A stretch of DNA of 20,187 bases from a virus: IMG/VR virus record IMGVR_UViG_3300017744_000208, positions 1-20,187 of that record; one strand, given 5' to 3'. The notes beneath the pieces were generated by a model, which did no database searches, was not told where the DNA came from, and saw nothing but the letters and a program-made list of their open reading frames with translations. This document shows positions 3,632-20,187 of this stretch, in pieces. How positions within the stretch are numbered: position 1 is the first letter of the stretch; every line of letters starts with the position of its first letter. The position numbers and the translations under genes are program-made.

Positions 3632-3633
3632 TT

Positions 3634-4131
3634 ATGAGTATAGACGATAAGATAAATGAAGCACTTGGTATCTCTACGGATAAACCAACAACTAAACAAG
3701 TAATCAAAAAAGATTTTACACCACCTGTTCCTAGATTAGAAGATAAGAATAAGGAAGATGTAGATAATGATTACAAATATAGTAGAGAAAATTATTACAA
3801 TCTTATAGAAAGAGGACAAGACGCTATACAAGGTATACTTGATATTGCTAATGAAAGTCAACACCCGAGAGCATACGAGGTTGCAGGTAATTTAATTAAA
3901 CAAGTTGCTGACACGGTTGATAAACTACAAGACTTGCAAGGTAAACTAAAAAATTTAAAAGATGTTCCTAATAAGACAACTGCAAATATCAAACAGGCAT
4001 TGTTTGTAGGTTCATCAGCAGATTTACATAAAATGCTAAAAAATAAAAATAAGGATGTACAAAGTGACGAAGATAAAGATTTTAAAGGCAAAGACATCAC
4101 ACCCAAAGATACAGACGTTTCTGATAAGTGA
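3634..4131 (+). CDS. 16: Small terminase subunit gp16
   Basis: Predicted small terminase that recognises concatemeric DNA and regulates the gp17 motor. At 165 residues it is nearly the length of T4 gp16 (164). It is highly charged, with a central helical, coiled-coil-prone stretch (about residues 60-115, including YNLIERGQDAIQGILDIANE) flanked by Lys/Asp-rich termini, as expected for gp16. Its position between gp15 and gp17 is the T4 order. No strong ribosome site precedes the ATG; the 2-nt spacing from the gp15 stop suggests coupling. The 3' end overlaps the start of the next ORF in another frame. Confidence 0.85.
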   Translation: MSIDDKINEALGISTDKPTTKQVIKKDFTPPVPRLEDKNKEDVDNDYKYSRENYYNLIERGQDAIQGILDIANESQHPRAYEVAGNLIKQVADTVDKLQDLQGKLKNLKDVPNKTTANIKQALFVGSSADLHKMLKNKNKDVQSDEDKDFKGKDITPKDTDVSDK

Positions 4132-4381
4132 TTTAACATATATACATAAAAATCCATATCCTAATACTTTACCCGAAGATCAAAGAAACACCTGGCTAAG
4201 TGATGGTATGAACGATCCAATACACGTTATTAGACACTCTATCAGTCCAACTCCTCGTATGGGTGTAGGAGGACAACTATATATTGAAAAGCAGTATTCT
4301 GTCAAAAGAGGCAGTAGTAGAATAAGTTATGCCGTAGAAAATGGTTATAACGCAATAGAAGGTATAATAGTAGATGAGTGA
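4055..4381 (+). CDS. Small conserved-looking protein between gp16 and gp17, start uncertain
   Basis: Not recognised. The non-overlapping part, from about base 4130, encodes a compact domain with NPYPNTLPEDQRNTW, DPIHVIRHSISPTPRMGVGG and a basic/aromatic C-terminus; it ends in an ATGAGTGA overlap with gp17. The T4 order has nothing here. The ATG at 4055 has AAGG directly abutting it, which is too close. The GTG at 4064 has AAGGA at 4051-4055 with 8 nt spacing and is the better start on ribosome-site grounds (105 residues). Both place 68-77 nt inside gp16 in a different frame. A later non-standard start or a frameshift from gp16 is also possible. Context suggests a packaging accessory, but no function can be assigned. 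Confidence 0.7.
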   Translation: MYKVTKIKILKAKTSHPKIQTFLISDLTYIHKNPYPNTLPEDQRNTWLSDGMNDPIHVIRHSISPTPRMGVGGQLYIEKQYSVKRGSSRISYAVENGYNAIEGIIVDE

Positions 4382-5999: not shown

Positions 6000-6002
6000 A
6001 AA

Positions 6003-6010
6003 CATAAATA
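6003..6010 (+). promoter_or_regulatory. Variant late promoter box upstream of gp18
   Basis: CATAAATA, 7 of 8 matches to the T4 late core, lies in the 58-nt gap between gp17 and gp18. The predicted transcript start is about 40 nt before the gp18 ATG. The same C-for-T variant recurs at two other gene starts in this window, which supports its use. Confidence 0.55.
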
Positions 6011-6057
6011 GATTTGAGATTAATGATACTATTTAGCTAAATAGGAGAACAACACAT

Positions 6058-7965: not shown

Positions 7966-7969
7966 AACC

Positions 7970-8497
7970 ATGCCAAATATAAATGACTTTAAAAGTAAGT
8001 TAAGAGGCGGTGGAGCTCGAGCCAATCAGTTCAGAGTGACAATGCCTTTCCCTGGATTTGCAAGTGTAGGTGGAGAGACTGAAACAATGTCTTTCTTATG
8101 TACATCAACAAGTCTACCAGGAATGACCTTGGGAGAAGTTGCGATACCATTTAGAGGTAGGGAGTTATATGTAGCGGGTGATAGAACATTCGGTACATGG
8201 ACTACAACTATGCTAAATGATACTGACTTTTTAATTAGAAACGCATACGAGAGATGGTTAAATGGTATTAACAATATGTCTGATAATGAAGGCCTTGTTA
8301 ATCCTGCTGACTATCAAGTTGACTCTTTCGTTGACCAATTAGACCGAAACGGTAACGTGATTAAATCATACACTTTCAGAGGAATGTTCCCAATAACATT
8401 GGACGACATTGGTCTGGATTACGGTACTAACAATGCAGTAGAATCTTTTACTGCAACGCATAGATACCAATACTTTGAAACAAATACTACTACTTAA
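7970..8497 (+). CDS. 19: Tail tube protein gp19
   Basis: Major tail tube subunit through which DNA passes. 175 residues against 163 in T4 gp19. The match to T4 is direct at the core loop: VAGDRTFGTWTTTMLND (T4 VAGDRTFDDWTVTVMND). The N-terminal ANQFRVTMPFPG and the C-terminal FPITLDDIGLDY plus a short beta strand follow the same fold. It starts 4 nt after the gp18 stop, with AGGAG at 7956-7960 giving a 9-nt spacing. Sheath and tube are therefore co-transcribed and probably matched in amount. Confidence 0.96.
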   Translation: MPNINDFKSKLRGGGARANQFRVTMPFPGFASVGGETETMSFLCTSTSLPGMTLGEVAIPFRGRELYVAGDRTFGTWTTTMLNDTDFLIRNAYERWLNGINNMSDNEGLVNPADYQVDSFVDQLDRNGNVIKSYTFRGMFPITLDDIGLDYGTNNAVESFTATHRYQYFETNTTT

Positions 8498-8503
8498 TAG
8501 ACG

Positions 8504-8511
8504 ACTAAATA
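8504..8511 (+). promoter_or_regulatory. Possible degenerate late promoter box upstream of gp20
   Basis: ACTAAATA in the 38-nt gap between gp19 and gp20 matches TATAAATA at six of eight positions and sits where a late promoter would serve gp20. This is weak; read-through from the gp18 promoter is an equally good explanation. Confidence 0.25.
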
Positions 8512-8535
8512 ATTAAGTAGAATTGAGGATATAAT

Positions 8536-10053
8536 ATGGCAGAACTATTTGGGTTTAAGATAGAGCGTTTAGGCACTCAGTCAACCGATCCAAGACAAAA
8601 CATAGTACCTCCACAAGCAGAGGACGGAACACAAACCGTCCCTGCTGGTGGGTTCTTTGCGTCTTACGGTGGGTTCGATACAAATGCTAGAAACGAACTA
8701 GACTTAATAAGAAGATATAGAGAGGTAGCACTACATCCCGAGTGTGACCTTGCAATAGAGGATATTGTTTCAGAAGCAATAGTCTCTAATGAAAATCAAC
8801 AATCAGTACAACTAGATTTAAGTAGAGTAAATTATAGTGATTCAATCAAAAGAAAAATGAGAGAGTCATTTGGTGAGGTACTTAAACTATTAAGTTTTGA
8901 TATAAAAGGACATGACATCTTTAGAAGATGGTATGTTGATGGTAGAGTTTATTATCATAAGATTATAGATAAAGATTCACCAAGATTAGGGATAACAGAA
9001 TTAAGATATATTGATCCTAGAAAGATTAAGAAGATAAGAGAAGTTAGAAAACAAAGAGTAGATGGCGTGCCAGGCTCTTTCTCTTTCTCTGATAAATTTC
9101 AGGAATACTTTATGTATAATGAAAAGGGAATACATCCTACAGCAGCTTCAAACGTAGGTGGATTAAAGATTGCTACAGACGCAATTGCATATTGCCCTTC
9201 TGGTCTTATAGATCAGACACATAATTTAGTTTTATCTTATTTACATAAAGCAATTAAACCTGTCAATCAATTAAGAATGATTGAAGACGCTGTTGTAATA
9301 TACAGAATTGCTCGTGCACCTGAAAGAAGAATATTCTATATTGATGTAGGTAATTTACCTAAGATCAAGGCTGAACAATATTTAAGAGATGTTATGGCTA
9401 GATATAGAAATAAACTTGTATATGACGCAAGTACAGGTGAAGTAAGAGATGACAGAAACTATATGAGTATGTTAGAAGACTTTTGGTTACCTCGTAGAGA
9501 AGGTGGGAGAGGAACTGAAATCACAACTTTACCTGGTGGTCAAAACCTAGGTGAGATACAAGATATAGAATACTTCCAAAGAAAACTATATCGTTCTCTA
9601 AACGTACCTATTAGTAGATTAGAAAGTGGATCAGGATTTAACCTTGGTCGTGCAGCTGAAATTAGTAGAGATGAAGTTAAGTTTACTAAATTTGTAGGCA
9701 GATTAAGAAAAAAATTCTGTATGTTATTCCATGATCTATTAAAAACACAACTTGTTTTAAAAGGTGTTATTGCTCCTGAAGAATGGGACAATATGCAAAA
9801 TGATATTACATACACTTACTTACAAGATGGATACTTTGCTGAACTAAAACATAGTGAGATGATGAGGGAACGAGTGGGTCTTGCTAGAGATTTAGAACAA
9901 TATGTTGGTAAGTATTTTAGTCATCAATATGTAAGAACAAAAATTTTAAAACAAAATGAATTAGAACAAAAAATGATTGATGATGAGATACAGAAAGAAC
10001 AACCTGTAGAACCTGAACAATCAAGTGAAAAAGAGGAAATAAAAGATGAGTAA
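8536..10053 (+). CDS. 20: Portal vertex protein gp20
   Basis: Dodecameric portal that nucleates head assembly and docks the gp17 motor. 505 residues against 524 in T4. Recognisable portal blocks are RYREVALHPECDLAIEDIV (residues ~62-80), LPKIKAEQYLRDVMARYRN (~273-291), and FQRKLYRSLNVPISRLES followed by GFNLGRAAEISRDE (~347-380), the region used as a T4-like diversity marker. The C-terminus is Glu/Lys/Gln rich. A GAGG ribosome site at 8525-8528 precedes the ATG. The last 8 nt (ATGAGTAA) overlap the next gene. Confidence 0.96.
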   Translation: MAELFGFKIERLGTQSTDPRQNIVPPQAEDGTQTVPAGGFFASYGGFDTNARNELDLIRRYREVALHPECDLAIEDIVSEAIVSNENQQSVQLDLSRVNYSDSIKRKMRESFGEVLKLLSFDIKGHDIFRRWYVDGRVYYHKIIDKDSPRLGITELRYIDPRKIKKIREVRKQRVDGVPGSFSFSDKFQEYFMYNEKGIHPTAASNVGGLKIATDAIAYCPSGLIDQTHNLVLSYLHKAIKPVNQLRMIEDAVVIYRIARAPERRIFYIDVGNLPKIKAEQYLRDVMARYRNKLVYDASTGEVRDDRNYMSMLEDFWLPRREGGRGTEITTLPGGQNLGEIQDIEYFQRKLYRSLNVPISRLESGSGFNLGRAAEISRDEVKFTKFVGRLRKKFCMLFHDLLKTQLVLKGVIAPEEWDNMQNDITYTYLQDGYFAELKHSEMMRERVGLARDLEQYVGKYFSHQYVRTKILKQNELEQKMIDDEIQKEQPVEPEQSSEKEEIKDE

Positions 10054-10312
10054 AGAAAATTTAAAAAATTTCGTAGATAACTTGGATAAAGGCGACAATA
10101 CAGAAGCACAGAAAAACTTTAATGACACCATGTCAGATAAGATTGCTGCTTCTTTAGATGACGCTAAAACTGATGTGGCTAAATCTATGTTTACAGGTCA
10201 ACAAGGTGTTATAGCACCTGAGGCTGATCCTTTTACAGGTGATAACATAGAACAATCAGCAGAGGAAACTCCTGCTGAAGAGGTGCCAAGTAATGACCAA
10301 GACGCTCAGTAA
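10046..10312 (+). CDS. 67: Prohead core protein, gp67-like
   Basis: Small prohead core component expected to be incorporated with gp22 and degraded by gp21. 88 residues (T4 gp67: 80). The N-terminal helix pair aligns by eye with T4 gp67: GDNTEAQKNFNDTMSDKI followed by DVAKSMF here, against SNDLVAARKLFAEAMAART and IAIARNFL in T4. The C-terminal half is strongly acidic (many Glu, Asp), as in gp67. It starts in an 8-nt overlap with gp20, preceded by AAGAGG, and sits in the T4 position right after gp20. Similarity is short, so synteny carries much of the weight. Confidence 0.72.
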   Translation: MSKENLKNFVDNLDKGDNTEAQKNFNDTMSDKIAASLDDAKTDVAKSMFTGQQGVIAPEADPFTGDNIEQSAEETPAEEVPSNDQDAQ

Positions 10313-10550
10313 ATTTAGAGAAGAAATAATTACTGACGGCAACGACTACAAGCGGACTAGGCAATATAATAAGTTATCGCCTAAGATGAAAAAAGCTGTA
10401 GATATGGTTTTTAGAGCTGCTGATAAATCAGCAGATGTAATCGCTGACTTTGAGAAGAATGTCAAAGCGGCCTCTAAAATGTATAATGTTAAAGTGAACG
10501 ATTTAATGAAATACTTTGACAAAGAAACATTAACAATTTTAAGAAGATAA
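10293..10550 (+). CDS. Small basic protein in the gp68 position (putative prohead core)
   Basis: 85 residues, helical and basic, with YKRTRQYNKLSPKMKKAVD near residues 19-37 and a C-terminus ending ILRR. Family identity is not certain. It occupies the place of T4 gp68, the second minor prohead core protein (about 141 residues in T4), but is much shorter and I cannot show sequence similarity. It overlaps the gp67-like gene by 20 nt and has a good ribosome site (GAGGTG, about 10 nt upstream of the ATG). Its charge is opposite to that of the acidic gp67-like protein, compatible with both being partners in a core scaffold. Confidence 0.65.
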   Translation: MTKTLSKFREEIITDGNDYKRTRQYNKLSPKMKKAVDMVFRAADKSADVIADFEKNVKAASKMYNVKVNDLMKYFDKETLTILRR

Positions 10551-10568
10551 AGGTAAAGGGAATAGCAT

Positions 10569-10943
10569 ATGGCAATATCAACAAGAACTCTATCAGATAC
10601 TAGAGGTTTTGCAAAAGTATTAGTGGAATTTACAAATGACAGCGCTACCACAACCGTAATTGACGCTTCTGGATTAGACGCACACCAAAATGGTGGGCAG
10701 TTAAAAATTAGAGGTCTAAAATTTGCGCTTACAGGTTACGCTACATTATCATTTATAAAAAATGGTGCAACAGCAGAGAAAGCAATATCACTATCAGGTA
10801 GTGATGTTTATAACGCAGGTACAATTGTGAACTCAGCAGGTGCTGCTACACATGCAACCGATGGTGATATTTCAATCACAACGGTAAGTGCAAGTGGTTA
10901 TGTTGTAATTGAAGTAGTAAAAGACAATTTTAATTATAGTTAA
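10569..10943 (+). CDS. Small beta-rich protein A of a tandem trio (putative virion protein)
   Basis: 124 residues, no recognised family. Composition (Thr, Ser, Gly, Ala, Val) and alternating hydrophobic positions indicate an all-beta fold. Features shared with the next two genes: a start of the type MAIxTxTL, a V-I-D-A-S segment (residues ~30-34), a predicted strand, then LSGSD (75-79), a GDISI segment and a terminal YVVIEV strand. It is the most divergent of the three. No signal peptide or membrane segment. It lies in the head operon between core proteins and the protease, so a capsid decoration or assembly role is inferred only from location. AAAGGG-type ribosome sequence precedes the ATG. 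Confidence 0.72.
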   Translation: MAISTRTLSDTRGFAKVLVEFTNDSATTTVIDASGLDAHQNGGQLKIRGLKFALTGYATLSFIKNGATAEKAISLSGSDVYNAGTIVNSAGAATHATDGDISITTVSASGYVVIEVVKDNFNYS

Positions 10944-10945
10944 TA

Positions 10946-11347
10946 ATGGCGATCACTACTGAAACATTAGCTGATGATAGTAAAAAAGTTATCGTTAAAG
11001 CAAATGGTTTAGGTGGTGAAACAAAACAAACATTATTAGACGCAAGTATTTTATCAGGCGCAACGTCAAGTCCTAACTTGTCAATTGCACACTTGTATTA
11101 CGAGATACTCGGTTCGGGAAATTTAACTTTTTTCTTTGACGCTGAGACAGATGAACAAGCTGCAACACAATTTAGTGGACGTGGTAATTACGGTTTGAAG
11201 AAAAACGAACCACGAATTAAACAAGAAGACACAGGCATAACACTTGTCAATCCGACAGGTGACGTGCTTGTGTCATCTGATAGTACGGTGTCAACATATA
11301 ATATAGTAGTAGAATTTAGAAAAGAAAAAGGATTTACAAATGGCTGA
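10946..11347 (+). CDS. Small beta-rich protein B of a tandem trio (putative virion protein)
   Basis: 133 residues, not recognised. It shares a layout with the following protein C: LLDAS (30-34 here; VDAS in C), HLYYEI (49-54; KLYYSI in C), FFDAET near 63-68 (IWDGET in C), a Phe/Leu-Ser-Gly (76-78), NPTGDVLVSS (102-111; TPTGDVLLST in C) and a terminal strand IVVEFRK (IIAEFR in C). That order of matches makes B and C clear paralogs. It starts 2 nt after gene A without an obvious ribosome site, suggesting coupled translation, and overlaps gene C by 8 nt. Confidence 0.75.
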   Translation: MAITTETLADDSKKVIVKANGLGGETKQTLLDASILSGATSSPNLSIAHLYYEILGSGNLTFFFDAETDEQAATQFSGRGNYGLKKNEPRIKQEDTGITLVNPTGDVLVSSDSTVSTYNIVVEFRKEKGFTNG

Positions 11348-11732
11348 TACAGTTTCAAGCTTAACAATCGCAGATACTTCAGGTGTCAAGTTTACAACTA
11401 AACTTACAAACTTCTCTGACGGTACAGGTGAGAACCTAGTCAAAAAAGTTGACGCTTCTGAATTAACTTTTATGACTGAGGATGGAAATAGAAAAATATC
11501 AAAGTTATATTATTCTATTAATACGTCTGACAGTAAGTCAGCAGTAGAACTTATATGGGATGGCGAAACTAACGCTACCGCAGTTTTATTGTCTGGTCAA
11601 GGTTTTTTCGATTTAAGAGCAGATGGTAATGAGATAACAAATAACTCGACAACACCTACAGGTGATGTTTTACTATCTACAAAAAATTTTGCAAATGGTG
11701 ATAATTACACGATTATTGCCGAGTTTAGATAA
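11340..11732 (+). CDS. Small beta-rich protein C of a tandem trio (putative virion protein)
   Basis: 130 residues, paralog of protein B (see the shared VDAS, LYY, WDGET, LSG, PTGDVL and EFR blocks in the same order). It ends at residue Arg130 after the last beta strand, without the short tail of B. The start ATG at 11340 lies in the ATGGCTGA overlap with gene B and has AAAGG just upstream. A late promoter for gp21 follows 8 nt after its stop, so the trio is transcribed with gp20 and the core genes. A minor virion or decoration role is likely but unproven. Confidence 0.75.
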   Translation: MADTVSSLTIADTSGVKFTTKLTNFSDGTGENLVKKVDASELTFMTEDGNRKISKLYYSINTSDSKSAVELIWDGETNATAVLLSGQGFFDLRADGNEITNNSTTPTGDVLLSTKNFANGDNYTIIAEFR

Positions 11733-11739
11733 TAATTTG

Positions 11740-11747
11740 TATAAATA
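11740..11747 (+). promoter_or_regulatory. T4-type late promoter box upstream of gp21
   Basis: Perfect TATAAATA in the 44-nt gap before the protease gene, giving a predicted leader of about 24 nt. It separates transcription of gp21 from the upstream trio. Confidence 0.78.
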
Positions 11748-11776
11748 TTAGTAGAGAAATTAAGAGATAGATACTT

Positions 11777-12421
11777 ATGAAGCTAATTACCGAAGAAATA
11801 GAACAAGCGGAATACATTGTAGAAGAAACTAATGGCAAAAAAAATTATGCCATCAAAGGTATCTTTATGCAATCTGACATCAAAAATAAAAATGGCAGAA
11901 TGTATCCAAAAGAGATTCTTCAAAGAGAAGTTGTTAGATACAACAGAGAATTTATCAATAAAAACAGAGCATTTGGCGAACTAGGTCATCCAGACGGTCC
12001 CACCGTCAACCTAGAAAGAGTTAGTCATATGATTAAAGCTCTGTATCCAGAAGGCAATAATTTTATCGGAGAAGCAAGAGTCCTAGACACACCATATGGA
12101 AAAATTGTGAAGTCACTTATAGATGAAGGTGCAAGATTAGGCGTTTCTTCCCGAGGTATGGGCACACTATCAAATAGTCAAGGTGCCAATGTAGTCAATA
12201 ACGATTTTTACCTTGCGACAGCAGCTGATATAGTTGCTGATCCATCTGCTCCAGACGCTTTTGTAGAAGGCATAATGGAAGGCAAAGAATGGATTTGGAA
12301 TAATGGGATTTTGAAAGAAGCAGAGGTTAAAGAATTAAAAGTACAGGTTGAGAGTAAAGAACGAATCGCAAGAGCAGAGAAAAATGCTATTGTGTTTGAG
12401 AACTTTCTTAAAAAGCTGTAA
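11777..12421 (+). CDS. 21: Prohead core protease gp21
   Basis: Serine protease that matures the prohead by cleaving gp23 and the core proteins. 214 residues (T4 gp21: 212). Motifs of the phage prohead protease fold are visible: NGRMYPKEIL (39-48), GELGHPDGPTV with the probable catalytic His71, an FIGEARVLDTPYGK block (97-110), and GVSSRGMGTL (122-131) containing the probable nucleophile Ser124/Ser125. ADIVADPSAPDAFVEG follows at 150-165, typical of the family. It has its own late promoter and precedes the scaffold gene as in T4. Catalytic residues appear intact. Confidence 0.95.
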   Translation: MKLITEEIEQAEYIVEETNGKKNYAIKGIFMQSDIKNKNGRMYPKEILQREVVRYNREFINKNRAFGELGHPDGPTVNLERVSHMIKALYPEGNNFIGEARVLDTPYGKIVKSLIDEGARLGVSSRGMGTLSNSQGANVVNNDFYLATAADIVADPSAPDAFVEGIMEGKEWIWNNGILKEAEVKELKVQVESKERIARAEKNAIVFENFLKKL

Positions 12422-12424
12422 TTT

Positions 12425-12432
12425 TATAAATA
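12425..12432 (+). promoter_or_regulatory. T4-type late promoter box upstream of gp22
   Basis: Perfect TATAAATA starting 4 nt after the gp21 stop. The predicted start near 12438 gives a leader of about 58 nt, the longest in the window, which opens with a hairpin. Confidence 0.78.
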
Positions 12433-12438
12433 ATAGTT

Positions 12439-12453
12439 GACTATTTTATAGTC
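12439..12453 (+). promoter_or_regulatory. Hairpin at the 5' end of the gp22 leader
   Basis: GACTAT-TTT-ATAGTC, a perfect 6-bp stem with a 3-nt loop; with one bulged C it extends outward through flanking TTG/CAA. It begins within a base or two of the start site predicted from the late promoter, so it would cap the 5' end of the gp22-gp23 mRNA. No T-run follows, so it is not a terminator. Confidence 0.45.
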
Positions 12454-12495
12454 CAATTATTGCAATTTTAATATAAAAAGAAGAGGAAAACTAAA

Positions 12496-13965
12496 ATGGA
12501 AAACGGTAAAACTGACGCTATGGCGCCGAAAAAAAATGCCGCTCCAGCAGAAGCACCTAAAACTTTAGGGGCAACTATTCAGAATGTTATCACTAAGGCT
12601 ATCACAAGCCCAACTGATGGCAAAATTGATTTCGCACAAGGGGTAAACCACATTACTGGTGACCCACAACAAAAAAGTGCAAAACCTGCTGAGCCAATGC
12701 AATCTCTTAAAGCTAATTACGACATGAAACCTAAGTCTGAAACTTATGAAGACAAGGAAGAAGTTAAAGAAGCTGACGAGAAAGAAAAAGAAAAGATGAT
12801 GAAAGCACAAGCTGACATTAAAAAAATGAACGCTCAAGTAAATGACAAAGAAAAAGAAATGAAAGAAGCAGAAGACCATAAGAAATCTGACATGATCAAA
12901 GCTGAGATTGAAAAGATGAAAGAAACTATGGCTGACAAAGAAAAAGAATTAAAGGCGCAAGCTGATAAGGAAAAAGAAATGTCAGAGGGCGAAATGCCTA
13001 AGGCTGCTTTAGACGCTTTGAAAAAGTCGCAAGACAAAAAAGAAACTGCTCACGATGGTGAGAAGAAAGACATCAAATCTCAAAAAGACAAAGAGATGAA
13101 AGAAGAGTCTGAAGACGAAAAGAAAAAAGAAATCAAAGCAAATAAAGAACACGATAAAGAAGTTAAAGAAGAAGAAGAAAAAGAAGATAAAAAAGAAATC
13201 AAAGCTTCTGCAAAAGATAAAGTAAAAGACATGGATATGAAAGAAGACGTAGCTGCTCTTACAGATGGTGAAGAACTATCGGAAGAGTTTAAAGCAAAAG
13301 CTGCAACGATTTTCGAATCTGCTGTTAAAGCAAAACTTGTAGAAGAAATTGAAAAATTAGAAGGCGAATACGAATCAAAAGTTGCTGATAAAGTTGAAGA
13401 AACTAAATCAGAAATCGTAGAAAAAGTTGACGCTTATCTAAATTACGTTGTCGAGTCTTGGATGAAAGACAACGAATTGGCTATCGAAAAAGGTCTAAAG
13501 GCAGAAATTACTGAAGACTTTATTGGTGGCATGAAGAAACTTTTTGAAACTCATTACATTGATTTACCTGAAAGTAAATTTGATGTTGTTGAGGATCAAG
13601 CTGCAACAATCATTAAGTTAAAAGAAGATATGAACAAAACATTAGAATCTAATGTAGAGTTAAATCAGAAAATTGGCGAATTTGCTAAAGACGACATTAT
13701 AAATGACGTATCTAGTGACCTTGCTGAAACTGAAACTGAAAAACTTAAAGGTTTAGCAGAAAGTATTGAGTATGTGGATGCTGCTGATTATAGAACGAAA
13801 GTAGAAACAATTAAAAATTCTTACTTTCCGAAATCAAAAGCAAGTGATACTGAATCTAATGAAGTAGCTGCAACAGATAACATGACTTCGGATGCTTTTG
13901 TATCTGAGTCAATGGCTGCATACACAGCTGCAATTAGTAAAAACCAAGCTAAGAAGTTATACTAA
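12496..13965 (+). CDS. 22: Prohead scaffold/core protein gp22 with long Lys/Glu-rich N-terminal extension
   Basis: Main scaffold of the prohead, removed by gp21 proteolysis. 489 residues against about 269 for T4 gp22. The last ~237 residues, from about Asp251, resemble canonical gp22, with LSEEFKAKAATIFESAVKAK near 261-280, a helical middle and a C-terminal helix ending KNQAKKLY. Residues ~82-250 are an extreme Lys/Glu/Asp/Met-rich stretch with near-heptad KEKE repeats, predicted as a long charged helix or coiled coil; residues 1-80 are Pro/Ala rich and probably disordered. A candidate gp21 site, FVSE followed by SMAAY, lies at 468-476. GAGG precedes the ATG, and its own late promoter lies upstream. 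Confidence 0.92.
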   Translation: MENGKTDAMAPKKNAAPAEAPKTLGATIQNVITKAITSPTDGKIDFAQGVNHITGDPQQKSAKPAEPMQSLKANYDMKPKSETYEDKEEVKEADEKEKEKMMKAQADIKKMNAQVNDKEKEMKEAEDHKKSDMIKAEIEKMKETMADKEKELKAQADKEKEMSEGEMPKAALDALKKSQDKKETAHDGEKKDIKSQKDKEMKEESEDEKKKEIKANKEHDKEVKEEEEKEDKKEIKASAKDKVKDMDMKEDVAALTDGEELSEEFKAKAATIFESAVKAKLVEEIEKLEGEYESKVADKVEETKSEIVEKVDAYLNYVVESWMKDNELAIEKGLKAEITEDFIGGMKKLFETHYIDLPESKFDVVEDQAATIIKLKEDMNKTLESNVELNQKIGEFAKDDIINDVSSDLAETETEKLKGLAESIEYVDAADYRTKVETIKNSYFPKSKASDTESNEVAATDNMTSDAFVSESMAAYTAAISKNQAKKLY

Positions 13966-13976
13966 TAACTTTTTGG

Positions 13977-13992
13977 TAGTTTAATTAAACTA
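13977..13992 (+). repeat. 16-bp perfect palindrome between gp22 and gp23
   Basis: TAGTTTAATTAAACTA reads the same on both strands and can form an RNA hairpin with a 6-bp stem and AATT loop; CTTT and AAAG further out could add pairs past a GG bulge. It sits in the 52-nt gap in front of the major capsid gene, where no late promoter box is present. It could be an RNA processing or stability element protecting capsid mRNA, or a protein site. Confidence 0.5.
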
Positions 13993-14017
13993 AAAGAGAA
14001 AAAAGGAGAGATAAAAA

Positions 14018-15409
14018 ATGTTTTTATCCGAATCTATACAAAACAAGTGGCAGCCTGTTTTAGACCATCCTGATCTTCCAAAGATCGGTGATAGTTATAA
14101 AAGAGCAGTCACTTCTGTTGTACTAGAGAACCAAGAGAAAAGTTTAAAAGAAGACGCTCAGTTTATGTCTGAGTCGGCTCCTTCAAACGCTACTGGTTCA
14201 TCTATACAAAACTGGAATCCAATTCTTATCAGTTTAGTTAGAAGAGCAATGCCAAATCTTATCGCTTACGATATTTGTGGCGTACAACCTATGTCAGGAC
14301 CAACTGGTCTTATATTTGCAATGAGAAGTAGATTCTCTAGTCAATCTGGCACAGAAGCTTTATTTAACGAAGCTGATTCAGACTTCAGTGGTAGAAATGC
14401 TGCTGGTTCTTCAACGAACACTGGATTCTCACAAACTGCACAGAATGGTGAAAACCCTGCTGTGCTTAATGACGCTCCAATCCCAGCTGCAGGTCCAAAC
14501 TACACAACTGGTACTGGTATGACAACAGCTGCGGCTGAAGCTCTAGGCGATGCTAGCGGAAACGCTTTCGCTGAGATGGCTTTCTCAATTGAGAAATCAA
14601 CTGTGACTGCTAAATCAAGAGCTCTTAAAGCTGAATACACTATGGAACTTGCTCAAGACTTAAAAGCAATCCATGGTTTAGACGCTGAAACAGAATTATC
14701 AAACATCCTATCTGCTGAGATCCTTGCGGAAATCAACAGAGAAGTTGTAAGATCAGTTTACAGAGGCGCTGAAGTAGGTGCTGCTGATAACGATAATTCA
14801 GACGCTGCAATTAACACAACAACTGCTGGTATCTTTGATTTAGATACTGACTCAAACGGAAGATGGTCTGTTGAAAGATTCAAAGGATTAATGTTCCAAG
14901 TAGAGAGAGACGCAAACACTATCGCTCAAAGAACGAGAAGAGGAAAAGGTAATATAATTATCTGTTCTTCAGATGTTGCCTCTGCATTACAAATGGCTGG
15001 TGTTTTAGACTACACTCCTGCGTTAAACAACAATTTAAATGTTGATGACACAGGTAACACTTTTGCTGGTGTATTAAACGGTAAATACAAAGTATATATC
15101 GACCCATATGCTGCAAACTTGGCGTCTAACGCTTCACCTGCTAAACAATACTATGTTGTTGGTTATAAAGGTACTTCACCTTATGACGCTGGTATTTTCT
15201 ATTGCCCATATGTGCCACTACAAATGGTAAGAGCAGTAGGACAAGACTCATTCCAACCAAAAATTGGTTTCAAAACTAGATATGGTCTAGTAGCGAACCC
15301 ATTTGCTGGTAGCGATGTGACTGGTACTGGTTCAATCACTGCTGATGGCTTAACTGCATTATCTTCTAACAGATATTACAGACGAGTACAAGTAGCGAAC
15401 ATCATGTAA
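14018..15409 (+). CDS. 23: Major capsid protein gp23
   Basis: HK97-fold major capsid subunit. 463 residues against 521 in T4, shorter mainly in the region after the N-terminal domain. Very close matches to T4 gp23: RRAMPNLIAYDICGVQPM (residues ~75-92; T4 RRAIPNLIAFDICGVQPM), a LKAEYTMELAQDLKAIHG block, SAEILAEINREVV, GVLNGKYKVYID and FKTRYGLVANPFA. The N-terminal ~52 residues form the probable delta segment removed by gp21, with a candidate cut after Met-Ser-Glu52. A strong GGAG ribosome site precedes the ATG. Codon choice shows more C-ending codons than neighbouring genes, as expected for the most abundant protein. A strong terminator follows. Confidence 0.98.
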   Translation: MFLSESIQNKWQPVLDHPDLPKIGDSYKRAVTSVVLENQEKSLKEDAQFMSESAPSNATGSSIQNWNPILISLVRRAMPNLIAYDICGVQPMSGPTGLIFAMRSRFSSQSGTEALFNEADSDFSGRNAAGSSTNTGFSQTAQNGENPAVLNDAPIPAAGPNYTTGTGMTTAAAEALGDASGNAFAEMAFSIEKSTVTAKSRALKAEYTMELAQDLKAIHGLDAETELSNILSAEILAEINREVVRSVYRGAEVGAADNDNSDAAINTTTAGIFDLDTDSNGRWSVERFKGLMFQVERDANTIAQRTRRGKGNIIICSSDVASALQMAGVLDYTPALNNNLNVDDTGNTFAGVLNGKYKVYIDPYAANLASNASPAKQYYVVGYKGTSPYDAGIFYCPYVPLQMVRAVGQDSFQPKIGFKTRYGLVANPFAGSDVTGTGSITADGLTALSSNRYYRRVQVANIM

Positions 15410-15435
15410 TAGTTTGTGCAAACAAATTCTAAAGA

Positions 15436-15459
15436 GGGGGCTTCGGCCCCCTTTTTTTT
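15436..15459 (+). terminator. Intrinsic terminator after gp23, UUCG tetraloop
   Basis: GGGGGC-TTCG-GCCCCC, a perfect 6-bp G/C stem on a hyperstable cUUCGg tetraloop, followed by eight T. It stands out in this AT-rich region and ends the head operon 27 nt after the gp23 stop. The T-run is on the + side only, so it acts in one direction. Confidence 0.96.
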
Positions 15460-15461
15460 AG

Positions 15462-15469
15462 CATAAATA
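15462..15469 (+). promoter_or_regulatory. Variant late promoter box upstream of the lipoprotein gene
   Basis: CATAAATA directly after the T-run of the gp23 terminator. The expected start, about 6 nt downstream, falls at or next to the ATG at 15475, so transcripts from here would be nearly leaderless. No ribosome site is visible before that ATG. Confidence 0.5.
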
Positions 15470-15474
15470 AAAGT

Positions 15475-15669
15475 ATGAAATATCTACTAATCCTCTTAAC
15501 AATTTTTATAGTTTCTTGTTCGAAACCATCAGTAAGCGTGTGGGATAAATTATGGGATAGAATAGATAATATGAAAGAAGAAGATAAGGTATCAGAGTCA
15601 GATCAAAAACTGATACAAGAAGCGACTGAAAAAGAGTGGCAAGAAGTAGATAAACAAACAGATAAATAG
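15475..15669 (+). CDS. Small predicted lipoprotein
   Basis: 64 residues. Residues 1-14 form a lipoprotein signal (Met-Lys-Tyr, then a Leu/Ile/Phe run) ending in the lipobox I-V-S-C, with the lipidated residue Cys15. The mature part, about 50 residues, is hydrophilic, with Trp-rich VWDKLWDRIDNM and a Glu/Lys/Gln helix at the C-terminus. It would be anchored to a membrane by its N-terminal lipid; the absence of Asp at the position after Cys would permit outer-membrane sorting by the usual rule. No family recognised. Phage lipoproteins of this size include superinfection-exclusion proteins and outer-membrane spanins; neither can be shown here. It lies just behind the capsid terminator and 4 nt before the next gene. 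Confidence 0.72.
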   Translation: MKYLLILLTIFIVSCSKPSVSVWDKLWDRIDNMKEEDKVSESDQKLIQEATEKEWQEVDKQTDK

Positions 15670-15673
15670 TAGT

Positions 15674-16300
15674 ATGACTACTACAAAAGCATTAGATAGA
15701 CAACCAACTAAATTTGACTATGCAGAACCTACAAAGTTTAGGTTTGGCGTAACCAAACTTCCTAAAGTAGAGTTTTTCTGTACGGCTGCAAACATACCTG
15801 GTATATCACTAGGTCAAGCAAGTATGCCTACACCTCTTAAAGACATACCTATACCAGGCGATAAATTAGATTATGATAATTTAACTATACAATTCTTGGT
15901 AGATGAAAGTTTAGAAAATTACAGAGAAATACATGGTTGGTTAACAGGTCTTGGTTTTCCTAAAGACCATGAACAATTTAGAAATCTACAAAACGCAGGA
16001 AGTGACAGATTTCCTACAACAAATAGTGTAAGTCTCAACAAAGAACTAGGAAAAGTAAGTACGGCAGTACAAGATGATGGTGGTCTATATTCAGACGCAA
16101 CTTTATTTGTATTATCAAGTAAAAACAATGCAGCTTTAGAAGTTAGATTTAGAGATATATATCCTATATCATTATCTGGTTTAGACTATAATCAACAAGA
16201 AACTGATATACAGTATCTAACTGCTAGTGTGACCTTTGCATATAAGATATACGAATTTGCAGCTGTGTCAGGTGGCAGAACCATAGAAACTACATCATAA
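15674..16300 (+). CDS. Tail-tube-fold protein (gp19/gp54-like tube initiator or terminator)
   Basis: 208 residues. It resembles the tail tube fold: FFCTAANIPGISLGQASMP near residues 34-52 parallels gp19's FLCTSTSLPGMTLGEVAIP; then IPIPGDKLDYDNLTIQFLVD (58-77), ENYREIHGWLTGLG (81-94), and a C-terminal IYPISLSGLDY strand pair. The ENYREIxxW and closing TASVTFAYKIYEF segments recall T4 gp54, the baseplate tube initiator, more than gp19. In cyanophages the slot between gp23 and uvsY often holds the tail completion gene gp3, which is an alternative; I cannot separate these by eye. No convincing ribosome site precedes the ATG; a start coupled to the lipoprotein gene 4 nt upstream is likely. Confidence 0.75.
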   Translation: MTTTKALDRQPTKFDYAEPTKFRFGVTKLPKVEFFCTAANIPGISLGQASMPTPLKDIPIPGDKLDYDNLTIQFLVDESLENYREIHGWLTGLGFPKDHEQFRNLQNAGSDRFPTTNSVSLNKELGKVSTAVQDDGGLYSDATLFVLSSKNNAALEVRFRDIYPISLSGLDYNQQETDIQYLTASVTFAYKIYEFAAVSGGRTIETTS

Positions 16301-16303
16301 AGC

Positions 16304-16331
16304 TTGATTTTTTGAGTAGTTATGATATAAT
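16304..16331 (+). promoter_or_regulatory. Sigma70-like promoter upstream of uvsY
   Basis: TTGATT (16304-16309) and a perfect TATAAT (16326-16331) separated by 16 nt, in the 76-nt gap before uvsY. In T4, uvsY and uvsW are not purely late genes, so an early or middle promoter here makes sense. The -35 overlaps a sequence only loosely like a MotA box, so no middle-class assignment is made. Confidence 0.55.
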
Positions 16332-16354
16332 ATCCATAGGATAAAATATCCATA
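16329..16354 (+). repeat. 10-bp direct repeat in the uvsY promoter region
   Basis: AATATCCATA occurs at 16329-16338 and again at 16345-16354, a 16-nt period. The first copy overlaps the -10 box and predicted start; the second runs into the CATAAATA box. The first copy also opens an inverted repeat, TATCC-ATA-GGATA (16331-16343). Operator-like, no binding protein known. Confidence 0.4.
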
Positions 16355-16358
16355 AATA
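16351..16358 (+). promoter_or_regulatory. Variant late promoter box upstream of uvsY
   Basis: CATAAATA, one mismatch from the T4 late core, 19 nt before the uvsY ATG; AAGGTG at 16362-16367 provides the ribosome site. It could serve the whole uvsY-oxygenase-uvsW operon late in infection. Confidence 0.5.
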
Positions 16359-16376
16359 TAAAAAGGTGAATACATA

Positions 16377-16805
16377 ATGACGTTAGAAGAAATACAGACA
16401 ATGGCAGATAAAGACTTGAAGATCAATGATGTTGAACTTGATTTAGAATCTTTAAAGACGCCACAATTACACAACAAATATTCAAAGTACCATTCAAAAT
16501 ATAAAAATCTTTTAAAGGTTGCTGAACAAGATTTAGCAAGAATTGTAAGAGAGAAGTGGGAATACTACACAGGTAAAGCAGACCCTAGTGTATACCAAGA
16601 AAAACCTTTTAATCTAAAAGTATTAAGACAAGACGTTGACAAATACGTTAAGTCAGATAGTGATGTTAATAAACTAGAACAAAAGGTAACATATATAGAA
16701 ACAACGGTAGATTATTTAGAGAAGACTCTAAAAATTATATCAAATAGAACATTTACTATTAAGAATGCTATAGATTGGAAAAAGTTTACTTCAGGAGTTA
16801 TTTAA
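16377..16805 (+). CDS. uvsY: Recombination mediator UvsY
   Basis: Recombination mediator protein that loads UvsX recombinase onto gp32-coated single-stranded DNA. 142 residues against 137 in T4 UvsY. Layout matches: an N-terminal MTLEEIQTMADKDLKI (T4 MRLEDLQEELKKDVFI), KYSKYHSKYKNLL helix, a REKWEYYTGKADP segment (T4 KARLDYYSGRGD) and a C-terminal RTFTIKNAIDWKKFTSG (T4 RGFAIKHIQDMRAFEAG). It heads an operon in which every following gene overlaps its predecessor. Its stop codon shares a base with the next ATG. Confidence 0.93.
   Translation: MTLEEIQTMADKDLKINDVELDLESLKTPQLHNKYSKYHSKYKNLLKVAEQDLARIVREKWEYYTGKADPSVYQEKPFNLKVLRQDVDKYVKSDSDVNKLEQKVTYIETTVDYLEKTLKIISNRTFTIKNAIDWKKFTSGVI
16793..16797 (+). 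promoter_or_regulatory. Ribosome binding site fixing the start of the first oxygenase
   Basis: AGGAG 7 nt upstream of the ATG at 16805, which shares an A with the uvsY stop (TAATG). An in-frame ATG at 16775 would overlap uvsY by 31 nt and has no such site, so 16805 is preferred. Confidence 0.7.
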
Positions 16806-17698
16806 TGCAATTAAGAAATTCATACATGTTTTACAAGAGTGCTATCAAGCCAGATGTATGTAAGAAAATTATATCACATGGTTTATCAAAGATGGTTGTG
16901 GATGAAAGTCATGGTGTATCAAAAGTAGCTGCTACCTTTGATGGTAAAGAAAAAGGTGGCATAGATAGTCAAGGCAGGAAGATGTCTGATACTATGATAA
17001 CAGGAGGCGCAAACAGAGAAACGCTTGCTAAAAAAGGCATTGACGTTGAAAGAGCCTATGTAAGAGATAGTGATATTTCATGGTTGAATGACAAATGGTT
17101 ATACGATTTATTTCATCCATATATACATCACGCAAACGCACAAGCAGGTTGGAACTGGAAGTGGGATTTTTCTGAGTCATTTCAGTTTACAGTATATCAC
17201 GGTAGAAAAGAAAATGGTGGTTTCTATGGTTGGCATGCTGATGGATCATCTGATTTTAGAAGTGCATATAAAGCAGCTGTAAAAGTAAAAGATGGTAAGG
17301 TACCACAATTTAAACCACCTAAAAGAGATGATAAAGGTTTTGTGATTATGAGACCTGATGGTAAACCTGAACCTGACATGAGAGGAGCTGATATACCTCT
17401 TAAAAGAGATAAGAAATCTTTAGCACCTGGATTTACTGATAATATACATATGTGGGATAAAGTAAGAAAAATAAGTATGACTGTTAATCTAACTAATCCT
17501 AATAATTATGCAGGTGGTAATCTAAAGTTTGATTTAGGCGCTCACGCAGGTAAGAAAAGATTTAAGGTATGTGAAGAAATAAGACCTCAAGGATCAGTTA
17601 TCATATTCCCTAGTTTTACATATCATTGTGTCACACCTTGTACAAGAGGAACTAGATACTCATTAGTATTGTGGAGTTTAGGAAAACCATGGCAATAA
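16805..17698 (+). CDS. 2OG-Fe(II) oxygenase 1 (prolyl 4-hydroxylase/PKHD-like)
   Basis: 297 residues. Predicted 2-oxoglutarate- and Fe(II)-dependent dioxygenase with a double-stranded beta helix. The facial triad is visible: H144-x-D146 in FYGWHADG, distal His274 in PSFTYHCVTP, and the 2OG-binding Arg284 in RGTRYSLVLW. MTVNLTNPNNYAGGNL (225-240) is the typical strand pair between them. A ~70-residue insertion (about 150-220) separates HxD from that strand. Substrate unknown: protein Pro/Lys side chains, nucleobases and small molecules are all possible. It is the first of five such genes between uvsY and uvsW. Confidence 0.88.
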   Translation: MQLRNSYMFYKSAIKPDVCKKIISHGLSKMVVDESHGVSKVAATFDGKEKGGIDSQGRKMSDTMITGGANRETLAKKGIDVERAYVRDSDISWLNDKWLYDLFHPYIHHANAQAGWNWKWDFSESFQFTVYHGRKENGGFYGWHADGSSDFRSAYKAAVKVKDGKVPQFKPPKRDDKGFVIMRPDGKPEPDMRGADIPLKRDKKSLAPGFTDNIHMWDKVRKISMTVNLTNPNNYAGGNLKFDLGAHAGKKRFKVCEEIRPQGSVIIFPSFTYHCVTPCTRGTRYSLVLWSLGKPWQ

Positions 17699-18444
17699 AA
17701 GACACAGAAAAATTTTACAAAGATAATAAGTATTGTGTTATAAAAGAATTTATACCACCTATACTTGCAGATTATCTATATGGTTATGCTCTTATGAGAG
17801 CTAATAGAGCAAAGACTATGGTCAATAGTAAATGGCCTGGTTATAGAGCAGAGCTTGATGGCACATATAAAGATCAACAAGTGCCTAATACTTACTCATG
17901 TTATGCTGATCCAGCAATGGAAACATTATTACAATATGGTTTACAAGGCATGAGAAATATTACAGGTTTAAATCTTAAACCTACATATTCATATTGGCGT
18001 TTATACAAGAACGGTGATGATTTAAAAAGACACAAAGATAGACCAAGTTGTGAAGTGTCAACTACATTATGTTTAGGATATGACAATAATAATTTAAAAG
18101 GTAGAAAACAAGATTGGGAAAAATATGACTGGCCTATGTGGGTAGATAAGACAGGAGGCTTTGGTAATAGAGGTGTGCCTATTCATATGAAACCTGGTGA
18201 TATGATAGTTTATAGAGGTTGTGAAATAGAACATTGGAGAGAACCTTTTTTAGGTGATAATCACGCTCAAGTATTCCTTCATTATAACAACGTAGATGGA
18301 CCATATGGTGAAAACTGTGTCTATGATGGCAGACCTCATTTAGGATTACCTGCTGAATTTAAGATACCAGAAAAAATACAGGCAATGCAAAAGGCAGATA
18401 AAAACTTACATGAGCAGCGATTATCAAACAAAGAAAAAACATAA
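17689..18444 (+). CDS. 2OG-Fe(II) oxygenase 2
   Basis: 251 residues from the ATG at 17689, which has AGGA upstream and overlaps the previous gene by 10 nt; an ATG 18 nt further upstream is less likely. Predicted triad: H115-x-D117 in RHKDRPS, distal His182 in EIEHWREPF. The flanking segments SYWRLYKNGDDLKRH, STTLCLGYD and HAQVFLHYN are familiar from phage-encoded oxygenases of the prolyl-hydroxylase type; the basic 2OG-binding residue is not certain. The C-terminal ~30 residues are Lys/Glu rich beyond the catalytic fold. Substrate unknown. It is not a close relative of its neighbours, so the array is not one simple amplification. Confidence 0.85.
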   Translation: MAIKDTEKFYKDNKYCVIKEFIPPILADYLYGYALMRANRAKTMVNSKWPGYRAELDGTYKDQQVPNTYSCYADPAMETLLQYGLQGMRNITGLNLKPTYSYWRLYKNGDDLKRHKDRPSCEVSTTLCLGYDNNNLKGRKQDWEKYDWPMWVDKTGGFGNRGVPIHMKPGDMIVYRGCEIEHWREPFLGDNHAQVFLHYNNVDGPYGENCVYDGRPHLGLPAEFKIPEKIQAMQKADKNLHEQRLSNKEKT

Positions 18445-18949
18445 AGATTTCACGTTGGTACAAGATAATTTCTTGTCAAATAATGAGTGTGATGAGTTAG
18501 TAGAAAAATATAAAAATCTTACATCTGAATTTGATAATAATAAGTATGGTTATTCATCATACTTTACGAACAATATAACATTTTCAGATCAATTAAAAAC
18601 ATTAATAGATACATACACAAAAACATTTAAGGAAAGTGCTTTGACACCTTATCCTTGGGTATTAAAAGAACTTAGGTTTAAATGGTTTAAACCAGGCAAC
18701 TGGTTCAAAGATTTTCATTGTGAGCATGGATATGATAATAACAAAAGAGTATTAAACTTTATGATATATCTATCAGATCATAATTGTGGTACAGAGTTTT
18801 ATACAGGTGAAGTAATTAAATCTATAAAAGGTAGGGTTGCTATGTTCCCAGCCTACTTTACACATCTACATAGAGGACAACAATGTCCTGATAACCATGA
18901 TAGATATATTATGGGTGGCTATTTTAATTATGAAGATAATCAAAGATAA
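18410..18949 (+). CDS. 2OG-Fe(II) oxygenase 3 (HxE variant)
   Basis: 179 residues, overlapping the previous gene by 35 nt. Fold landmarks: ELRFKWFKPGNWFKDFHCEHG (about 87-107) with the metal pair H103-x-E105, then VLNFMIYLSDHNCGTEFYTG (114-133), FPAYFTHLHRG with distal His154 (or His152), and DRYIMGGYF with the probable 2OG-binding Arg165. The acidic ligand is Glu rather than the usual Asp, which occurs naturally in some oxygenases. Short N-terminal region, no other domain. Substrate unknown. Confidence 0.83.
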   Translation: MSSDYQTKKKHKDFTLVQDNFLSNNECDELVEKYKNLTSEFDNNKYGYSSYFTNNITFSDQLKTLIDTYTKTFKESALTPYPWVLKELRFKWFKPGNWFKDFHCEHGYDNNKRVLNFMIYLSDHNCGTEFYTGEVIKSIKGRVAMFPAYFTHLHRGQQCPDNHDRYIMGGYFNYEDNQR

Positions 18950-19445
18950 AGATTTTTTAAAAGATAAACATAAGGACTTTATATCAGAGTTTATTCTAAA
19001 GGCTGATTTTCCTTATTTCATACAACCACATTCTACATTTGATGACGACTACACAATGATGGAACATATATGTTTACGAAGATATGATAAAGATTGGAAT
19101 ACAGGCAACGTAGATATGTATAAGGATATATTAAATACGTTTTGCAATAAACATGACATACGATATAAGGAAATATTAAGGTGCTCTGTAAATCTAACAT
19201 TTAACGTGGGTATAAAAAAATCATTAGAACATACAGATCATAAAGAACCACACAAACAATTATTAATATATTGTAATGATGTAAAGGACAAAAGATCATA
19301 CACAGTAATATTAGATGAAAATAGAAAACCTATAGATAAAATAAAACCTATACAATATAGTGCAGTAAGTTTTGGTGACAATCATCACTATCATTATTAT
19401 CCAAGAATAGGTCATAGAGTTGTATTGGTATATACATTTAAATGA
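18930..19445 (+). CDS. 2OG-Fe(II) oxygenase 4 (paralog of 5)
   Basis: 171 residues from ATG 18930. An in-frame ATG at 18837 would add 31 residues that merely read the previous gene out of frame, so 18930 is preferred; overlap with gene 3 is 20 nt. Triad: H101-x-D103 in LEHTDHKE, distal His153 in GDNHHYHYYP, Arg163 in GHRVVLVYTF. The strand SVNLTFNVG (86-94), QLLIYCND and RSYTVIL match protein 5 in order and spacing. This compact form lacks any accessory domain. Substrate unknown. Confidence 0.8.
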   Translation: MKIIKDKDFLKDKHKDFISEFILKADFPYFIQPHSTFDDDYTMMEHICLRRYDKDWNTGNVDMYKDILNTFCNKHDIRYKEILRCSVNLTFNVGIKKSLEHTDHKEPHKQLLIYCNDVKDKRSYTVILDENRKPIDKIKPIQYSAVSFGDNHHYHYYPRIGHRVVLVYTFK

Positions 19446-19963
19446 TAATAGATAAAGATTTTTTAAGTAAGGAACAGATAGCGTATATTGAAAATCATAT
19501 TTTTAGTAATGACTTTCCTTGGTTTATTGAGAACAGGAGTGTTGTCGGCAGAAAGAATAAACCTTTTCTAAAACATACGGTATTAAGAAGACCTGAGGAA
19601 AGAGAAGAAGGAGAATATTTTAGGTCATATATGGGCAAATTCTGTTTAGGTATATTAGATAATTTTGCAAAAAATAATACTATGACGATAATAGATGTGC
19701 TTAGAATAAGTATCAATCTAACATATAACAATGGTTATGAAAAATGTAATGTACACCAAGACCATGAATATAATCATTCACAACTGCTTGTATATATAAA
19801 TGAGTGTGATAAAAAATCATATACAGTAATTAAGAATGGTAAGAAGGAAATAAAAGTAAGACCAGAGAAGTACAAAGGTGTTTGTTTTGACAATCAACCT
19901 CACTATCTATATTTTCCTAAAAAAGGCCTTAGAGCTGTTATGGTATTTACATTTAAAATATGA
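19442..19963 (+). CDS. 2OG-Fe(II) oxygenase 5 (paralog of 4)
   Basis: 173 residues, starting in an ATGA overlap with gene 4. Opening IDKDFLSKEQ parallels IKDKDFLKDKH of protein 4, followed by DFPWFI (24-29; DFPYFI in 4), a HTVLRR block (HICLRR in 4), SINLTYNNG (90-98), H105-x-D107 in NVHQDHEYN, QLLVYINE, KSYTVI, distal His154 in QPHYLYFP and Arg164 in GLRAVMVFTF. All putative catalytic residues are present. Its stop overlaps the uvsW start by 4 nt. Substrate unknown. Confidence 0.8.
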   Translation: MIIDKDFLSKEQIAYIENHIFSNDFPWFIENRSVVGRKNKPFLKHTVLRRPEEREEGEYFRSYMGKFCLGILDNFAKNNTMTIIDVLRISINLTYNNGYEKCNVHQDHEYNHSQLLVYINECDKKSYTVIKNGKKEIKVRPEKYKGVCFDNQPHYLYFPKKGLRAVMVFTFKI

Positions 19964-20187
19964 TTAAAGTAAAAAAATTAAATACGGTCTATTTACAGAT
20001 AGAGGCAGAAGCAGATGTTAGACGTGAATTAACAGATTATTTTTCTTTTGAGGTACCTGGTTATAAGTTTACACCACAATTTAGAAACAGAGTTTGGGAT
20101 GGTAAGATACGATTATATTCATATGCCACAGGTCAATTATATGTTGGATTGTATCCCTATCTAAAAGACTGGTGTAATAAGAAAAAC
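19960..20187 (+). CDS. uvsW: UvsW helicase, N-terminal part (3' truncated by window end)
   Basis: First 76 residues, continuing past the window. DYFSFEVPGYKFTPQFRNR then WDGKIRLY (about residues 27-54) match the T4 UvsW N-terminal domain (DFFSFEADGYRFNPRFR and WDGRIRLL). UvsW is an SF2 helicase that unwinds R-loops and branched DNA and helps switch replication from origin- to recombination-dependent start. Helicase motifs lie outside the window. The ATG overlaps oxygenase 5 by 4 nt, so it belongs to the uvsY operon. Confidence 0.92.
   Translation, partial: MIKVKKLNTVYLQIEAEADVRRELTDYFSFEVPGYKFTPQFRNRVWDGKIRLYSYATGQLYVGLYPYLKDWCNKKN

Follow-up and report, generated by a model that had tools for sequence, protein, structure and literature searches.

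Many marine-phage 2-oxoglutarate (2OG)-Fe(II) oxygenase genes have been described, 24 of them in the cyanophage S-SCSM1 (PMC9602691), and a structural likeness of marine-phage 2OG proteins to EGLN3 has been reported (PMC12774648). According to PMC9599517, a ferrochelatase gene always adjoins a 2OG gene in HTVC023P-type pelagiphages, and PMC2984593 interprets gp141, a single 2OG gene beside uvsY in the phage Syn9, as a DNA repair gene. The abundance of these genes, their clusters, the example next to uvsY, the EGLN3 likeness and the 'ferrochelatase' adjacency were already known. In this work, we analyzed a viral stretch of 20,187 nt (IMG/VR record IMGVR_UViG_3300017744_000208, positions 1 to 20,187; hereafter the window), in which five consecutive genes, here called A to E, lie between uvsY and uvsW, and the evidence supports all five as 2OG-Fe(II)-type oxygenases.

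Syn9 gp141 occupies the same uvsY-uvsW slot and is A-type by profile (141 bits with the S42 seed, 111 bits with A), but it stands alone. The array of the cultured pelagiphage Mosig EXVC030M (A-B-DE-2OG-2OG-2OG) shares the A, B and D/E types and the head-to-tail order with the window, and that of the cultured pelagiphage HTVC008M (A-type, two others, C-type, B) shares the A-type, C-type and B genes in the same head-to-tail manner; however, the former lies between a tail fibre gene and a neck gene and the latter between neck and baseplate genes. Both records annotate B as ferrochelatase. The Mosig slot holds one oxygenase of another type, the HTVC008M slot a different gene without a Pfam or NCBIfam match, and the tail fibre-neck junction of the window (1187-1223) carries no insert. 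HTVC023P-type pelagiphages (PMC9599517) combine the B family with adjoining oxygenases, as the window does, and since B itself appears to be an oxygenase by fold and triad, their pairing can be reread as oxygenase with oxygenase. Among hydroxylases, the PKHD type (PiuC, Sbal_3634) and the bacterial and HIF prolyl hydroxylases resemble A by sequence profile and B and E by structure, although A stays under the NCBIfam curated cut-offs and the identity of B and E to these structures is about 9-17%. The prolyl 4-hydroxylase (P4H) of chlorovirus PBCV-1, a viral hydroxylase tied to 4-hydroxyproline in viral proteins (cited in PMC9301287), differs in being a single enzyme of an algal virus.

Five oxygenase genes and the labels of B, D and E

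The array runs on the plus strand from the recombination mediator gene uvsY (16377..16805; PF11056, E=6.3e-35; phrog_231) to the uvsW helicase gene, which is cut by the window end (19960..20187; 73 aa align with Mosig UvsW at 67% identity). Gene A (16805..17698, 297 aa) is a PF13640/PKHD-like 2OG-Fe(II) oxygenase with H144/D146 and H274; gene B (17689..18444, 251 aa) belongs to phrog_2954, a family labelled 'ferrochelatase'; gene C (18410..18949, 179 aa) is PF13640-like with an HxE variant (H103/E105, then H152 or H154); and genes D (18930..19445, 171 aa, with the start at ATG 18930 picked by homology) and E (19442..19963, 173 aa) form a family, here D/E, that corresponds to phrog_274, labelled 'DNA endonuclease V'. 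The overlaps at uvsY/A, A/B, B/C, C/D, D/E and E/uvsW are 1, 10, 35, 20, 4 and 4 nt, so that gene A begins at the base that completes the uvsY stop and gene E terminates inside the uvsW start. The initial annotation had described five head-to-tail overlapping open reading frames (ORFs) with plausible metal triads reaching from uvsY to uvsW, and the coordinates, overlaps and family-wide triads all agree with it. It had also counted at least four sequence types, which holds as well: the five genes represent four types, because D and E are paralogues (37% identity). The ratio of nonsynonymous to synonymous substitution rates (dN/dS) of A-E against relatives was mostly 0.11-0.22 and at most 0.40 for distant pairs, with some dS near saturation, and all five genes are under purifying selection. 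Chance ORFs are ruled out by homology, triads and selection.

Membership in the 2OG-Fe(II) superfamily is based on Pfam for A and C, on AlphaFold2 (AF2) models for B and E, and on identity to E for D. Gene A matched PF13640 with E=2.1e-10 and 41.8 bits, above the Pfam cut-off of 27, and also phrog_61; its profile matched the PKHD-type hydroxylase 3dkq (E=0.0024), and PRK05467-type PKHD models of NCBIfam matched it at E=1.3e-12 to 1.4e-7, all under the curated cut-offs, while genes B-E had no NCBIfam match at E<=0.01. In the alignment of gene A, H144 and H274 were present in 14/14 rows and D146 in 12/14; the two rows without D146 are two cultured phages that were entered by position and are not A orthologues. 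Gene C matched PF13640 with E=5.6e-5 and 24.4 bits, under the same cut-off, as well as phrog_61 and phrog_2297, and H103/E105, H152 and H154 were kept in 19/19 rows of its family. As single sequences, genes B, D and E had no Pfam match. Family alignments drawn from related viral contigs (51 members for B, 39 for D/E) gave H115/D117/H182 in 51/51 rows for B and H105/D107/H154 in 39/39 rows for D/E, and 15 of the 39 D/E members matched PF13640 at E<=0.01. The Arg or Lys that binds 2OG sits about 10 residues past the distal His, and an Arg is found at about +10 in A (R284), C (R165) and D/E (R164).

The initial annotation had suggested structure prediction as a check for the double-stranded beta-helix, and this fold is present in both models made. 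The beta-strand-rich model of E (predicted local distance difference test, pLDDT, 94.5) matched the Burkholderia 2OG oxygenase 6n1f best (Z 16.5, root-mean-square deviation (rmsd) 2.6, 166 residues aligned), followed by PKHD 3dkq (Z 16.3), PiuC (15.7), PHD2 (14.7) and AlkB (13.9); PKHD types (15.2-16.3) thus stand above AlkB, which ties with PHD2 (13.6-14.7), and PolD tops the Foldseek list of E. For B (pLDDT 96.0), SnoN heads the list (Z 16.7, rmsd 3.5, 195 aligned), and PHD2 and the Pseudomonas putida P4H are tied at Z 15.9.

These results bear on the database labels. Gene B matches phrog_2954 with E=6.1e-47, but no Pfam family was found for B at E<=1 or across its 51 members at E<=0.01, and PDB sequence searches with gene B profiles gave just Mn-transporter matches at E>0.1. 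True ferrochelatases have a different fold, and a ferrochelatase identity of B was rejected, as no Pfam family matches and the model fits 2OG oxygenases. The T4 endonuclease V (DenV) label of D/E, to which gene D is linked through phrog_274 (E=5.4e-21), was rejected as well: no glycosylase occurs among the six Pfam families listed for the 39 members, 15 of these match PF13640, and the model of E is beta-rich where the DenV fold is helical. The labels of B, D and E are thus most likely wrong, because the modelled folds of B and E match 2OG oxygenases and part of the D/E family matches PF13640. Through RefSeq and GenBank, 'ferrochelatase' and 'DNA endonuclease V' have spread to proteins with oxygenase triads. 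In a limited open-access literature search, no report of phrog_2954 as an oxygenase was found; phrog_274/'endonuclease V' was not searched. The match of A and C to PDLC01653, a CRISPR-associated '2OG' model, spans just an 81-position generic oxygenase core, and hence no defence role is claimed.

The A-B pair, its sites and its neighbours

Arrays elsewhere were labelled with profiles made from A-E and from genes of cultured phages, tolerating one unlabelled gene between members. The fetched loci contained 161 B ORFs, 83 of them non-redundant, and 69 arrays with both ends remained after 14 incomplete ones were dropped. Gene A accompanied B in 66 of these 69. Array size ranged from 1 to 10 oxygenase genes, mostly 2-10, and contents varied (A-B, A-B-DE, A-B-C-DE, A-B-C-DE-DE). 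The initial annotation had regarded such genes as usually scattered; this did not survive the comparison, as adjacent arrays are common in marine phages and not exceptional. Because A and B are kept together so regularly and are under purifying selection, the pair looks functionally coupled; no report of this rule as two oxygenases, or of a link to glycine-rich fibres, was found in the same limited literature search. As separate observations, a contig binned as Flavobacteriaceae has ten 2OG-type ORFs, nearly all adjacent, within 7.5 kb (L296:271-7766), and in Syn30 (L093:2689-4109), as in some other cyanophages, the gene that the B-family gene overlaps encodes a DNA methyltransferase and not an oxygenase.

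A survey of uvsY-uvsW intervals in relatives, which the initial annotation had also suggested, covered the best 80 UvsY loci and the window, without dereplication of contigs. Among 68 resolved intervals, 40 were empty, 12 held another gene and 16 held oxygenases; 13 more were unresolved. The slot is therefore an optional site. A and B were both present in all 16 oxygenase-bearing slots of the survey (nine A-B, four A-B-C-DE-DE, three other mixtures), but this is not universal at the slot, given the lone A-type gene of cultured Syn9. Contig L225 has A-B-C-DE after uvsY. Non-oxygenase slot genes of relatives (L025:5387-6178, L003:6237-7067) encode 263-276 aa, and one representative of the 12 had no Pfam or NCBIfam match. 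A uvsY-A-B-uvsW layout was also seen in a 118.7 kb contig of a Porticoccaceae metagenome-assembled genome (L282, NZEU01000035.1), which looks as if it came from a T4-like phage and was binned with bacterial sequences. Across the non-redundant loci, uvsY/uvsW flanked 12 of 83 arrays and the remainder lay mostly among virion genes; since arrays occur at other sites, a specific tie to UvsY/UvsW was rejected.

A putative phage late promoter, CATAAATA (16351..16358, plus strand), matches the consensus NATAAATA, which PMC2984593 reports as the late promoter of S-PM2 and other cyanomyoviruses. The consensus occurs seven times on the plus strand of the window, six of them intergenic, and not at all on the minus strand; the copy in question ends 19 nt ahead of uvsY, and none lies within 16359-20187. 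As predicted from this motif match, the array should be expressed late, together with virion proteins. The part of a pelagiphage transcriptome paper available to us names one 2OG gene, whose timing was not found there.

Glycine-rich ORFs (at least 35% G in 80 aa) occurred within three genes upstream of the array at 49 of 75 loci (8 of the 83 lacked any gene on that side). By position, the upstream counts were 17/75, 23/65 and 16/55 and the downstream counts 0/77, 1/56, 3/49, 1/42 and 0/32 (0-6%), with the two sides swapped for at least one locus, L096, whose array is on the other strand; the background was 120 of 2987 genes, array neighbours included. The representative of the commonest upstream cluster is fibre-like with PF21722, and that of the commonest downstream cluster is a virion structural protein. 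Glycine-rich tips are the receptor-binding domains of Pam3 gp24 and S16 gp38 (PMC9608196). The contig IMGVR_UViG_3300017779_000020 (G002), which is 99.745% identical over window 1-16833, extends upstream into six glycine-rich ORFs, followed by another cluster of four 2OG-type genes; a further ORF was taken by eye for a methyltransferase. The six fibre-like ORFs (reversed coordinates 12225-23577, 532-653 aa) have alike C-terminal ends and are joined by one shorter ORF, so that this single phage has a whole bank of paralogous, adhesin-like genes. Among T4-like records, the three long ones with B (118.7-147 kb) had 12-20 labelled oxygenase ORFs, and the four without B had 0-2. PF21722 was found in 7/7 searched cultured phages with B (in one under the cut-off) and in 0/14 uvsY contigs without B, not counting G002 and G006, whose sequences stop within the slot.

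Proposed substrates and rival explanations

We propose, with a probability of roughly 0.38, that A-E form a mobile oxygenase cassette with A and B as its core, which is expressed late and encodes protein hydroxylases, likely for the phage's own virion proteins and notably for glycine-rich fibre tips. The cassette would have been built around A and B, inserted into the optional uvsY-uvsW slot and transcribed late with the virion genes; each enzyme would hold Fe(II) in its triad, activate O2 with 2OG and hydroxylate a side chain, in the manner of prolyl, asparaginyl or PKHD-like protein hydroxylases. The likeliest substrates would be late virion proteins, especially receptor-binding tail-fibre tips, and virion proteins are favored because of the late timing and the location of the sister arrays. 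The computed parts of this explanation are the fold of B and E, all triads, the A-B partnership, the multiple sites, the late-promoter motif and the proximity of sister arrays to glycine-rich ORFs, from which we infer catalysis, a protein as substrate and the fibre tip as that protein. The PKHD relation of A and the resemblance of B and E to prolyl hydroxylases would agree with protein substrates but are no proof; the enzymes might instead act on small molecules or host proteins, and D/E might act on nucleic acid. A bolder version, in which banks of oxygenases each hydroxylate one residue of the glycine-rich tips, with A and B as an obligatory core, and so diversify host recognition post-translationally, seems doubtful at present. 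No relevant report came up in literature searches on hydroxylation of phage fibres.

Several observations weigh against the virion-protein proposal. The substrate and activity of A-E are putative, judged from sequences and models. By fold, B and E stand as close to small-molecule oxygenases (SnoN for B, PolD for E) as to protein hydroxylases; as SnoN and PolD act on small molecules, the fold lists select no substrate class, and E matches AlkB as well. Gene B has no Arg near +10 of the distal His, but H182-W-R184 instead, so that its cosubstrate pocket is unusual, and B is less certain to use 2OG than to have the oxygenase fold. A glycine-rich ORF was present in 4/4 T4-like records with B and 0/4 without B (p=0.029; the window's phage counted via G002), but the records were hand-picked, three of the four lacking B are partial, and the ORF of G034 is exactly at the threshold and cut by the stretch end. 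PF21722 was found in 0/7 uvsY-slot contigs with B (fragments of 11-28 kb) and was absent from the whole of G002 despite its six glycine-rich ORFs, and hence the PF21722 and glycine-fraction criteria differ. Among 17 cultured cyanophages, PF21722 was over cut-off in 6/9 with B and 3/8 without, which is not significant (p=0.35); where both genes occur, they lie within about 7 kb in 4/6. Thus, arrays and glycine-rich genes are strongly linked as neighbours, whereas their co-occurrence across cyanophages gives a weak link. Variable tail-fibre regions may just tolerate cargo, and the window's own array is far from fibre genes.

The position in a recombination operon had led the initial annotation to stepwise DNA-base chemistry, and DNA repair or base modification (AlkB-like repair, TET/JBP-like oxidation) coupled to UvsY/UvsW recombination would also accord with the published repair interpretation of the Syn9 gene beside uvsY (PMC2984593). 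A D/E profile from 9 sequences matched a DNA N6-methyladenine demethylase at E=0.013, but the profile from 39 sequences gave no demethylase at E<=1 and placed EGLN1 first (E=0.17). The AlkB-like fold of E leaves a nucleic-acid substrate possible as far as fold goes; AlkB PF13532 did not match A-E at E<=1, nor did TET/JBP PF12851, which was over cut-off in 0/8 related records with one sub-cut-off match across 14 stops, and TET/JBP chemistry was rejected by sequence. Together with the few loci flanked by uvsY/uvsW, this makes the DNA reading quite improbable, and the alternative mentioned in the initial annotation, that virion or host proteins are modified, is the better fit, although the substrate stays putative. 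Auxiliary metabolism, in which the enzymes lower or sense cellular 2OG or serve iron and haem metabolism with a 'ferrochelatase' partner, is very unlikely: it draws on the 2OG and NtcA proposal for cyanophages (PMC3037559), on 2OG and ferrochelatase as partner auxiliary metabolic genes (PMC9599517) and on their enrichment in seasonal phages (PMC11561400), but the iron-insertion partnership loses its basis when the fold and triad of the 'ferrochelatase' are those of an oxygenase and no Pfam family matches it, and 2OG drawdown needs no four distinct conserved families.

Hydroxylation of host proteins (translation factors, ribosomal, transport or regulatory proteins) in favor of late phage production would fit the P. 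putida P4H among the nearest solved folds of B, which was crystallized with EF-Tu, and the B relatives in bacterial contigs that lack phage-type arrays, where the surrounding genes are, as judged by eye, presumably unconnected housekeeping genes. We consider it unlikely, since it leaves the arrays that follow glycine-rich ORFs and the number and variability of the enzymes unexplained, and late expression would come late for host takeover. If the genes are passengers that build up in cargo-tolerant slots (uvsY-uvsW, gp46/gp47 and the side of the tail fibres), their products would share no pathway and would act on unrelated proteins or small molecules; this would account for the mostly empty slot with its varying contents, for the different gene that fills it in HTVC008M and for the closeness in fold of small-molecule oxygenases. 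The A-B constancy and purifying selection speak against such an origin, which we regard as improbable.

Other window features and the meaning for marine phages

Three further features of the window were noted by eye. A GC-rich inverted repeat followed by a T run (15436-15459), downstream of the major capsid gene, is likely a terminator. A 64-aa ORF (15475-15669) between capsid and tail-tube-like genes begins with a signal-like stretch and has a lipobox-like context around a Cys. Three adjacent look-alike ORFs of 124-133 aa (10569-11732), between the portal and prohead protease genes, are perhaps paralogous small virion proteins.

2OG oxygenases are frequent in marine phages yet unexplained. 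If phrog_2954 and phrog_274 are oxygenase families, the oxygenase-ferrochelatase pairings described in PMC9599517 and PMC11561400 need rereading. With the A-B core and the tie between arrays and glycine-rich fibre genes, the question of the substrate would become one virion-proteomics experiment on cultured phages.

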